Source: Thermus antranikianii DSM 12462
GTDB taxonomy: Bacteria; Deinococcota; Deinococci; Deinococcales; Thermaceae
Direction of reading: 5' to 3'
Assembly: GCF_000423905.1 (NCBI RefSeq)
Contig: NZ_AUIW01000001.1
Span: 248,001-312,000, forward strand
Length of the DNA: 64,000 bases
The notes beneath the pieces were generated by a model. That model saw only the letters and a list, made by a program, of their open reading frames with translations, was not told the DNA's origin and made no database searches. Both the position numbers and the translations under genes were made by a program. Positions within the stretch are counted from its first letter, which is position 1. Every line of letters begins with the position of its first letter. This document shows positions 21,523 through 24,547 of the stretch, one piece after another.

Positions 21523-21780
21523 GACCTCTCCCAAGGGCAAAGGCCCACGCCCTCCAGCTGGAGGGCCGGGTTGGGCAAAGCATACCCCACGCATCCCAGG
21601 GGCCGTCACCGGATGCCAAGCCCTTGCCCGCGGGGCTAGCATCTTCCTTCCCCCAACAGGGACGGTACGTTCCCCTTTGCATGGCCGAAATCCACCCCAC
21701 CTGGTGGACTTGGGGACGTTCCCCACGGGACATCCCTCCCCTGATACCCGTGATACAGTCGGCATAGTAGGAGGTGAACG
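21523..21780. other. Intergenic region with repeats and a palindrome
   Basis: No coding potential was recognised. It holds an 18-bp palindrome (GCCCTCCAG/CTGGAGGGC, 21549-21566, possible ruvC terminator). The direct repeat ACGTTCCCC occurs at 21667 and 21716, and TGATACCCG at 21742 is repeated exactly at 21782 across the next start codon. TACAGT at 21754-21759 is a possible -10 for the downstream gene, which has AGGAGGTGA as ribosome-binding site. Confidence 0.4.
21549..21566 (+). terminator. Palindrome downstream of ruvC
   Basis: Perfect 18-bp palindrome 27 bases after the ruvC stop, without a T tract. It may end the dcw-ruvC transcript. Confidence 0.4.
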
Positions 21781-22218
21781 GTGATACCCGCCTTCAGAAG
21801 CGCCCAAACCCAAACCCAGTGGGCCCTGGAGTTCATCCGCCTGGTCATGCTTCTTCTGTGCTTGGTGGGATGGGTGATGTATCCGGTGGAGCTTCTCCTC
21901 CTGGACCACTGGACGGAAAGCTGGCAGAGTAGGATTCCCTTCTTTGTGGCCATCCCTGGATTCATTTTCACCCTGTGGGTGCTCTTTGACCGGAAAACCC
22001 CCTGGGTGAGGTGGGCCTTCATCCTCACCATGTGGGCTTCGGTGTTCACCGGTCTAATTGGGGCCTACTTTCACTTGCTCTGGAACTTTGAGGGGGAGGT
22101 GGCTTGGGAGTTTGAGGCTGCCATGGAGGCCATGGCCGGAAGCCGCCCCGTCCTGGCGGCCCTGGCCTTTACCCACATAGGGGTAACGGGGCTTCTGGCC
22201 ATCTACCGGGCCAGGTAG
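21781..22218 (+). CDS. Four-helix membrane protein, paralogue A
   Basis: 145 residues with four predicted membrane helices (about 18-38, 50-66, 76-98 and 121-140). The loop after helix 1 carries L-D-H-W-T-E-S-W-Q-S-R-I-P-F-F-V, shared almost exactly with the next gene. Histidines in the third helix region (Y-F-H-L-L-W) and the fourth (A-F-T-H-I-G) are conserved in both copies and could bind a metal or heme. No family name comes to mind. GTG start with AGGAGGTGA. It is followed 10 nt later by its paralogue and then a secreted DOMON-like protein. Confidence 0.85.
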   Translation: MIPAFRSAQTQTQWALEFIRLVMLLLCLVGWVMYPVELLLLDHWTESWQSRIPFFVAIPGFIFTLWVLFDRKTPWVRWAFILTMWASVFTGLIGAYFHLLWNFEGEVAWEFEAAMEAMAGSRPVLAALAFTHIGVTGLLAIYRAR

Positions 22219-22228
22219 GAGGTGAGGT

Positions 22229-22672
22229 ATGATCGAAGCCCTCATCAAAGCCCAAACCGAGGAGGAAAGGCTTTTGGAGTTCTTGCGGTCCACCTTTCTC
22301 CTCATCGCCCTGGTGGGCTTTGCCTTCTACAGCATGGAGCACTGGATCTTGGACCACTGGACGGAAAGCTGGCAAAGCCGCATTCCCTTCTTCGTGTCCC
22401 TGGTGGGGTTTCCCCTGACCCTTCTCATGTTCTTCCACCGGGGCAAATGGGTTCGCTACCCCTTCCTACTCTGGATGCTGGTAACCGTGGCCACAGGCCT
22501 CCTGGGGGCCTACTATCACCTCCTTTGGAATGCCCAGGATGCCGAGGTAAGCCTTTGGAACCTCAAGGGGTTCCTGGAGGCATTTGAAGGAAGCCGCCCT
22601 GTGCTGGCAGCCCTGGCGCACACGCATGTGGGGGCGGTGGCCTTTGTGGTGGGCATAACCATAAGGGACTAA
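22229..22672 (+). CDS. Four-helix membrane protein, paralogue B
   Basis: 147 residues, clearly a tandem duplicate of the preceding gene. It has the same four-helix layout, the same L-D-H-W-T-E-S-W-Q-S-R-I-P-F-F-V loop, G-A-Y-Y-H-L-L-W-N in helix 3 and G-S-R-P-V-L-A-A-L-A-H-T-H-V-G before and in helix 4. Conserved tryptophans and histidines in both suggest a shared cofactor site, and the two may form a heterodimer. Function unknown. The DOMON-like gene follows after 15 nt, so one operon of three genes is likely. Confidence 0.85.
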   Translation: MIEALIKAQTEEERLLEFLRSTFLLIALVGFAFYSMEHWILDHWTESWQSRIPFFVSLVGFPLTLLMFFHRGKWVRYPFLLWMLVTVATGLLGAYYHLLWNAQDAEVSLWNLKGFLEAFEGSRPVLAALAHTHVGAVAFVVGITIRD

Positions 22673-22687
22673 CGGGAGGTAAGAGGT

Positions 22688-23242
22688 ATGAGAAAGGGCA
22701 TCGTCTGGCTTCTGGTTCTGGTCCTGAGTGGGGCGCTGGCCCAGGCACCCAAGGTGGATGGGAAGATCGCCAGCGGGGAGTACGCCAAAACCTACAAGCA
22801 CGAGAAAAGCGGCATCACCCTGCACTGGAGCATCGTGGGGGACACCCTGTATTTGGCCCTCGAGGGCAAGAGCAAGGGCTGGATCGGCATTGGCTTCCTG
22901 CCAGAGAAGACCGACAAGAAGAAGGGGGCGGACCAGTACCTCTTCTACATGGAGGGGGGCAAGCTGGTGGCCCTGGACATGTACCAGACCAAGCGCACGG
23001 GAGCCCCGGTAACCGATGAGAAGGAGGGGGGTAAAAACTCCATCCTGGCCGCTGCGGCCACCTACGAGAACGATACCTGGGTGGTGGAGTTCAGCCGCAA
23101 GCTGAAAACCGGGGAAGCCACCGACGTGGAGATCACCCCGGGGAAAAAGCTCATCGTCCTCCTGGCCCACGCGGAAAAGATGGACCCCAAGGAGGAGCAT
23201 AAGAAGACCGAGCGCTGGTACCTGGAGGACTTCACCTTCTAG
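22688..23242 (+). CDS. Secreted DOMON-like domain protein
   Basis: 184 residues. A signal peptide (residues 1-19, cleaved after A-L-A-Q-A) is followed by a single beta-sandwich domain starting V-D-G-K-I-A-S-G-E-Y. It contains the DOMON pattern I-T-L-H-W-S-I-V-G-D-T-L-Y-L-A-L-E-G and G-W-I-G-I-G-F, then N-D-T-W-V-V-E-F-S-R-K-L. DOMON domains bind heme b or sugars outside the membrane. Paired with two membrane proteins carrying paired histidines, electron transfer or ligand relay is possible but unproven. The gene ends with a strong terminator. Confidence 0.8.
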   Translation: MRKGIVWLLVLVLSGALAQAPKVDGKIASGEYAKTYKHEKSGITLHWSIVGDTLYLALEGKSKGWIGIGFLPEKTDKKKGADQYLFYMEGGKLVALDMYQTKRTGAPVTDEKEGGKNSILAAAATYENDTWVVEFSRKLKTGEATDVEITPGKKLIVLLAHAEKMDPKEEHKKTERWYLEDFTF

Positions 23243-23255
23243 GAGGCAGCTTTCT

Positions 23256-23287
23256 GGGACCCTGGGTTTGCCCAGGGTCCCTTTTGT
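23256..23287 (+). terminator. Strong intrinsic terminator after the DOMON gene
   Basis: GGGACCCTGGG-TTTG-CCCAGGGTCCC followed by TTTTGTT: an 11-bp perfect stem, 4-nt loop and U-rich tail. Confidence 0.95.
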
Positions 23288-23306: not shown

Positions 23307-23334
23307 TTGACTTTTATAGGCTCATGGGTACCAT
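23307..23334 (+). promoter_or_regulatory. Promoter of the YeeE/YedE gene
   Basis: TTGACT, 16 nt, TACCAT, then 7 nt to ATG 23342. It argues that translation starts at 23342 on a leaderless mRNA and not at the ATG at 23324, which lies inside the promoter. Confidence 0.65.
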
Positions 23335-23341
23335 AAGGGGC

Positions 23342-24547
23342 ATGGAGCGGACAGCGCGCCCCCAACCCCTGCCCCTCCTCCTCTTCGCCCTCCTGGCCTC
23401 GGGGCTTTCCTATGCCGTCCATCTGGCTTCGGGAACCCGGCTCGTTTTGGCCTTCTGGGTGGCGGTCCTCCTGGGCTTAGCCCTCTTCCACGCCAAGTTC
23501 GGCTTCGCCTCCGGCTTCCGCCGCTTCCTCCTCACCGGGGAAAGCCGCCTTCTCAGGGCCCACTTCCTCCTCTTTGCCCTCACCGCCCTCCTCTTCTTCC
23601 CCTTCCTGGTCCAGGGGGAGGCCTTCGGCCAGGCGGTCCAGGGCTTCGTGGTGCCCCTGGGGGTGGCCCTGGCGGTGGGGGCCTTCCTCTTCGGGGTCGG
23701 CATGCAACTGGGGGACGGGTGCGCCTCCGGTACCCTCTACCACACGGGAAGCGGGGACACCCGGGGGATTTTGGTTCTCTTGGGCTTCATGGTGGGCTCT
23801 TTGCTGGGGGTCTACCACCTCCCTTACTGGCAAGCCCTTCCCGCCTGGAGCCCAGGTAGTGCCCTCACTTGGTTTCCCTCCCCCTACATGGGCCTTCTCC
23901 TCTGGATAGGCCTTTTGGCCTTCCTCTACCTTCTGGTTTCCCGGGTGGAAAAAAGGCGCACGGGCCAGGTGGTACCTCTCTGGCAACGGGAAGCCACCCA
24001 CCCCCTCTTCGGCCCTTGGAGCCTGGTGGGAGGTGCCGCAGTCCTAGCCCTAGGAAGCCTCCTTATCCTCCTATTATTGGGCCGCCCCTGGGGGGTAACG
24101 GCGGCCTTCGCCCTTTGGGGAGGCAAGCTGGCCCAACTTCTGGGGATCCCGGTGATGGATTGGGCCCTCTTCAACAACCCGGCCTTCGCCGAAAAACTAG
24201 AGCAGAGCATCCTTAAAGACCCCACCAGCGTGACCAATTTCGGGGTCTTCCTGGGAGCTTTCCTGGGAGCCACCCTGGGTGGGGCCTTTAGGCTTCAGGA
24301 CCTGCGCCGCATCCCCTGGACCACCCACCTAGGGGTCTTCCTGGGAGGGGTGCTCATGGGCTACGGAGCCCGGCTGGCAGGGGGTTGCAACATCGGGGCC
24401 TACCTGGGGGGCACTGCCTCCTTCAGCCTCCACGGTCCCCTCTGGGGGGTCTTCGCCCTCCTGGGCACCGCCCTGGGGGTGCGGCTTAGGCCCGCCTGCC
24501 GCCTGGAAAACGAAGGCAAGACGGGAAAGAGCCTGCCTAGCACTTGA
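23342..24547 (+). CDS. YeeE/YedE-family (TsuA-like) sulfur-compound transporter
   Basis: 401 residues and roughly nine to ten membrane helices forming two related halves. Each half has the family cysteine motif: G-D-G-C-A-S-G-T-L-Y-H-T-G-S-G and A-G-G-C-N-I-G-A-Y-L-G-G. In known TsuA proteins these cysteines relay thiosulfate or similar ions through the membrane. No rhodanese or TusA partner gene is adjacent, so the substrate remains uncertain. It is monocistronic, ends with an 11-nt convergent overlap with the epimerase gene, and lies at the left edge of the light-response island. Confidence 0.88.
   Translation: MERTARPQPLPLLLFALLASGLSYAVHLASGTRLVLAFWVAVLLGLALFHAKFGFASGFRRFLLTGESRLLRAHFLLFALTALLFFPFLVQGEAFGQAVQGFVVPLGVALAVGAFLFGVGMQLGDGCASGTLYHTGSGDTRGILVLLGFMVGSLLGVYHLPYWQALPAWSPGSALTWFPSPYMGLLLWIGLLAFLYLLVSRVEKRRTGQVVPLWQREATHPLFGPWSLVGGAAVLALGSLLILLLLGRPWGVTAAFALWGGKLAQLLGIPVMDWALFNNPAFAEKLEQSILKDPTSVTNFGVFLGAFLGATLGGAFRLQDLRRIPWTTHLGVFLGGVLMGYGARLAGGCNIGAYLGGTASFSLHGPLWGVFALLGTALGVRLRPACRLENEGKTGKSLPST

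Follow-up and report, generated by a model that had tools for sequence, protein, structure and literature searches.

A four-helix membrane protein pair and a DOMON protein form a conserved unit in Thermus and may serve in place of NrfD in molybdoenzyme operons

Sulfolobus cytochrome b558/566 includes CbsA, an exported DOMON-like haem protein, and its membrane partner CbsB. The commonest charge-translocating membrane subunits are the NrfD-like and the di-haem cytochrome b-like types, and each NrfD-like subunit comprises a pair of four-helix bundles and has, on the P side, a quinone site formed by His/Asn/Tyr-type residues (PMC8076601). In the DOMON domain of the plant CYBDOM protein HYP1 a Met and a His have been proposed as haem ligands by way of CDH structures (PMC10784544), and in the gamma subunit of ethylbenzene dehydrogenase (EbDH), of the type II DMSO-reductase family, the haem ligands are Met and Lys (PMC8840923). 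Here we describe a three-gene unit, A-B-D, for which we found no description in the open-access literature, and we lean, with modest conviction, towards its being a membrane module for electron transfer with the function of an NrfD-type subunit.

The unit lies within a stretch of 64,000 nucleotides (the window) of a Thermus chromosome, with ftsZ and ruvC upstream and crtB and a photolyase gene downstream. All three genes are on the + strand and each has a strong ribosome-binding site. Gene A (21781..22218) codes for a four-transmembrane (four-TM) protein of 145 residues and is followed after 10 bp by gene B (22229..22672), which codes for a four-TM paralogue of 147 residues, and after a further 15 bp by gene D (22688..23242), which codes for a DOMON protein of 184 residues with an N-terminal signal sequence recognized by inspection. 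An intrinsic terminator (23256..23281, + strand), a hairpin of 11 pairs with a T tail, stands 3′ of D. These open reading frames and the terminator agree with the initial annotation of the locus, and its description of A and B as tandem paralogues holds; they are ~54% identical over 136 residues. The 16-residue string that it had noted, LDHWTESWQSRIPFFV, is exact at residues 41–56 of both proteins (21901..21948 in A and 22349..22396 in B, both + strand), and the DNA core of the string occurs exactly twice in the genome. The unit is situated 3′ of ruvC and 5′ of a gene for a YeeE/TsuA-like sulfur transporter (23324..24547, + strand; PF04143, 1.5e-60), which is found 3′ of D in most Thermus A-B-D loci; as judged by this synteny the transporter is associated with A-B-D, and it is outside the transcript as bounded by the terminator. 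Further to the right, and on the same contig as ftsZ, we note an apparent carotenoid/light-response cluster (window:24537-30287), which by inspection contains CRP-type and B12-binding MerR-type regulators, crtB, photolyase and a cytochrome P450.

Relatives of A-B-D form a conserved operon in Thermus, in one Meiothermus MAG and in Trueperaceae, and the genes occur together as a set. A and B are adjacent in all 17 loci, with B always next to the A orthologue, and D is next in 16, the one locus lacking it (L042) being interrupted by a contig end. Profile matches to A/B are present in 33 of the 111 genomes of the phylum, two of which (G053 and G072) have a distant single-copy relative only. Twelve Thermus genomes have both A/B and the DOMON gene and seven have neither, and this joint presence and absence, together with the constant adjacency, argues that the unit is not a product of chance. 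The A and B proteins each form a 100/100 clade, and both clades contain Thermus and Trueperaceae members, so the duplication is old and predates the split of these lineages. Values of dN/dS of ~0.05–0.2 between the window and other Thermus orthologues indicate, at the level of sequence, that A-B-D is under purifying selection. In one Trueperaceae genome a Fur-family regulator gene lies directly 5′ of A (L043:4964-5431). Searches of phages, plasmids and viral contigs gave no relative of A, B or D except one distant gene on a Deinococcus aetherius plasmid.

Neither A nor B matches a Pfam or NCBIfam model above cut-off, those for the cytochrome b561 and cytochrome b families included. The AF2 model of B (pLDDT 94.7) has four helices (residues 11–40, 48–69, 73–105 and 125–144), and there is no clear match to the A/B fold in the PDB: no Foldseek match to B has an E below 0.18, and the VIA-align matches are generic helix bundles, such as the copper storage protein Csp and tetraspan proteins, at Z ~11, which is inside helix-bundle noise. 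The identification of A/B as cytochrome b561 proteins is thus not supported, and we likewise reject them as NrfD homologues, for which there is no Pfam match and an hhalign E of 0.3. Among 103 aligned sequences (15 A, 18 B and 70 others) H43, H97 and P124 are invariant, and P53, G93 and N101 are strongly conserved, P53 to near-invariance; at position 37 every A and B sequence has Glu, and the others mostly have Glu (90%), with Asp in 7%. Helix 1 carries H43 at its periplasmic end, and H97 is in helix 3; H43 and P53 both lie within the shared string. Conserved histidines had been claimed for helices 3 and 4, and this stands for helix 3 with H97; those of helix 4, H131 and H133, are invariant, as is H38, only in the B sequences compared, and in A position 131 is Phe or Tyr and position 133 is His in Thermus and Asn in Trueperaceae. 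The tryptophans thought to be conserved are not so family-wide. By the positive-inside rule and the helix borders of the B model, E37, H43, H97 and N101 are predicted to be at the periplasmic face.

The idea that D is paired with a b561-like membrane protein was not upheld. The two bis-His pairs on opposite sides of the membrane that characterize b561 are absent, and the only two family-wide histidines, H43 and H97, are both on the periplasmic side as judged by helix borders and charge. It is nevertheless conceivable, if rather unlikely, that A and B are haem-b cytochromes, with H43 and H97 as ligands (and H38, H131 and H133 also in B), which form a small trans-membrane relay like that of a b561-DOMON pair. 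Such a relay would fit the invariance of the two histidines in all members, the additional histidines of B and the haem-type character of D, as well as the location of some relatives beside a cytochrome c7, beside genes for a cytochrome c and a b561-type (DUF4405) protein, or beside Rieske proteins. It fits poorly with the placing of both histidines on one side of the membrane, with the failure to match any cytochrome b family or to find a clear counterpart in the PDB, and with the conservation of E37 and P124, which is about as strong as that of the histidines.

The third protein had been called exported and DOMON-like, and both its profile and its fold agree. D matches PF03351 (6.6e-20, 72 bits, with a gathering score of 32.7) and also EB_dh, and has a weak similarity to the NCBIfam CbsA model (E 0.013) that is far under the cut-off, although like CbsA it is an exported DOMON-like protein of haem type with a membrane partner. 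Its AF2 model (pLDDT 90.3) aligns with the DOMON folds of DBH (Z 15.1), EbDH gamma (13.7), CDH cytochrome (12.7) and NXR-C (12.6), and the haem DOMONs score Z 12–15 as against 9–10 for CBM9. D is without the canonical Met/His axial pair: H171, at the axial His position, is invariant in the alignment, and the usual Met position is occupied by K78, which is invariant among the A/B-linked D proteins. Single secreted DOMON proteins that keep Met/His are encoded by three genomes from a different family of the same order (L099-L101), all without A/B. Because H171 is kept and the Met is replaced by K78, Lys/His ligation, which would depart from the usual pair, is predicted, and we infer from the model and alignment that D is a candidate haem-b DOMON subunit ligated by these two residues. 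D is like EbDH gamma in its DOMON fold, its secretion and its linkage to iron-sulfur and molybdenum proteins in ten genomes (see below), but EbDH has Met/Lys ligands, whereas in D the Met position is taken by Lys and the His position keeps its His, and EbDH is soluble in the periplasm and has no pair of membrane proteins. In type II molybdoenzymes the haem gamma subunit serves the FeS subunits. The combination of a DOMON domain and a membrane redox partner is shared with the CYBDOM or cytochrome b561-DOMON proteins, from which A-B-D differs in that the partner matches no b561 model, the genes are separate and Lys replaces Met.

Immediately 5′ of A in T. caliditerrae and T. brockianus are genes for a 4Fe-4S protein (FeS) and a molybdopterin oxidoreductase (Mo), whose best NCBIfam matches are TtrB and TtrA, respectively; with scores of 181/416 bits for TtrB and 402/1750 bits for TtrA, both under the equivalog cut-offs, these are the nearest named relatives only. 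A search for the Mo protein throughout the Deinococcota, followed by a check of its neighbours, revealed two exclusive architectures: FeS-NrfD-Mo at 16 loci, none with A-B-D, and FeS-Mo-A-B-D in 10 Thermus genomes, none with NrfD. The NrfD proteins of the former match PF03916, and these loci are spread over several genera of the family, with a paralogue in Thermus among them, and over further families of the order, one of which contains the Trueperaceae-type genomes. In a tree that included the NrfD-type Mo proteins, those adjoining A-B-D are one 100/100 clade, and the exchange of NrfD was probably a single evolutionary event, so that the 10 and the 16 are not independent observations. Every genome with a Mo protein of this clade also has A-B-D, including one (G049) where no NrfD adjoins the Mo gene and A-B-D is on another contig, and in all 10 genomes A is on the same strand as the Mo gene and ~80–95 bp 3′ of it. 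Divergent genes upstream of the block code for a PhnD-like protein, a histidine kinase and a LuxR-type regulator, an arrangement that we take to resemble TtrSR.

In TtrAB-like operons A-B-D has the same operon role as NrfD, PsrC or TtrC, A-B-D and NrfD never being present together, and this context, hidden from the initial annotation, is a better one for the unit than the b561 pairing proposed there. A/B and the NrfD-type proteins are alike in their four-helix bundles and in having conserved polar residues of the His/Asn type near the periplasmic side, but the latter are single proteins of 8–10 TM helices whereas A and B are two separate four-TM proteins, there is no detectable homology between them, and A-B-D has the DOMON protein as an extra subunit. 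No test identified A/B as homologues of NrfD, so they would work like NrfD without being NrfD.

About seven Thermus genomes, and also Trueperaceae, have A-B-D without the molybdoenzyme. Thermus loci with and without the block have common flanks: RuvC-[RR, PhnD, FeS, Mo]-A-B-D-YeeE corresponds to RuvC-A-B-D-YeeE, and UvsE-[block]-A-B-D to UvsE-A-B-D. In Thermus sp. 2.9 (L036:4900-7010) the gap between ruvC and A holds fragments: a piece from the C-terminal end of the response regulator, part of the Mo-A junction and part of the region 5′ of FeS; judged by these remnants the gap is a deletion scar, and the enzyme block can therefore be lost. The reading frame of D is broken in this strain, which may reflect decay or an assembly error. 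In the window all that is left of the block is the leader adjoining A, where the leader and start of A (21727..21800, + strand) are ~75% similar to the Mo-A junction of the FeS-Mo-A-B-D operons. The window genome has no Mo protein of the A-B-D type at E 1e-60, and, with Trueperaceae, speaks against reading the unit as an NrfD substitute. A single NrfD-family gene lies at another place in the window genome and could act in trans. These solitary units, and a block that looks mobile or dispensable, are what would be expected if A-B-D were an unrelated neighbour of an enzyme that had lost its NrfD and relies on a soluble carrier or on another NrfD acting in trans. We consider so incidental an association quite improbable given the constant strand and spacing in all 10 genomes, the presence of A-B-D in every genome with that Mo clade, and the resemblance of D to molybdoenzyme gamma subunits.

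If A-B-D does work in the manner of NrfD, then A and B would pair in the inner membrane as a heterodimer, each contributing one four-helix bundle, and quinol would be bound or protonated at the conserved Glu/His/His/Asn cluster of the periplasmic face. D would be periplasmic and docked on A/B, its haem b held between Lys78 and His171, and would donate electrons to periplasmic partners or accept electrons from them, so that electrons would move between menaquinol and periplasmic enzymes by way of the unit. In the ten Thermus genomes the partner would be the directly upstream TtrA/TtrB-like molybdoenzyme, which has no NrfD of its own and may act on a sulfur substrate. In the window strain, where A-B-D is beside the thiosulfate-type transporter, it might have another redox partner or be a leftover under purifying selection. 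The early suggestion of a transmembrane redox or haem-linked system thus keeps its redox part, through the haem-b fold of D, the linkage to a redox enzyme and the conserved histidines, but its b561-like partner is not supported. Were this electron-transfer role correct, a small thermostable four-helix pair that replaces NrfD would be a third solution beside the NrfD-like and di-haem cytochrome b-like subunits.

A and B belong to a multi-phylum family of four-TM proteins that neither Pfam nor NCBIfam names, and profile searches show distant single-copy relatives in Deinococcota and two further phyla. The electron-transfer reading would give this widespread family a function, testable in cultivable Thermus. 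A secreted helix-hairpin-helix protein with Pfam HHH_3 and PsbU-like scores (e.g. L138-L178, L123-L127) adjoins 44 of the 55 relatives that lie outside A/B, a count in which a few loci are included twice, and no D-like DOMON protein adjoins any of these relatives. The prevalence of this partner, which is not a known redox carrier, counts against a role as NrfD substitute. Some relatives adjoin VIT, catalase and ferritin-like genes, and others CopA-like and CsoR-like genes (by inspection) and two-component systems. These neighbours, the Glu/His/His/Asn cluster and the Fur-family regulator gene of the one Trueperaceae locus could all be accommodated if A/B were a metal-site membrane protein for transport, storage or sensing, with D binding a non-haem ligand such as a sugar; we regard this as improbable, since it leaves the exclusion of NrfD from the molybdoenzyme operons unexplained, and since D has retained the axial His of DOMONs and is closer to haem DOMONs than to CBM9. 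A broader form of the electron-transfer reading, which we advance tentatively, is that A/B are quinol-reactive membrane subunits of a new class, with no sequence relationship to NrfD or di-haem cytochrome b. On this view the class would be in use in several phyla, its periplasmic partners (DOMON, helix-hairpin-helix, multihaem cytochrome c and Rieske proteins) would be interchangeable, and the DOMON partner would have Lys/His-ligated haem b. A second Thermus locus (L129:3430-9185, L135:2164-7314) contains a distant four-TM paralogue together with genes for YceI, a multihaem cytochrome of the c7 type and a two-component system.
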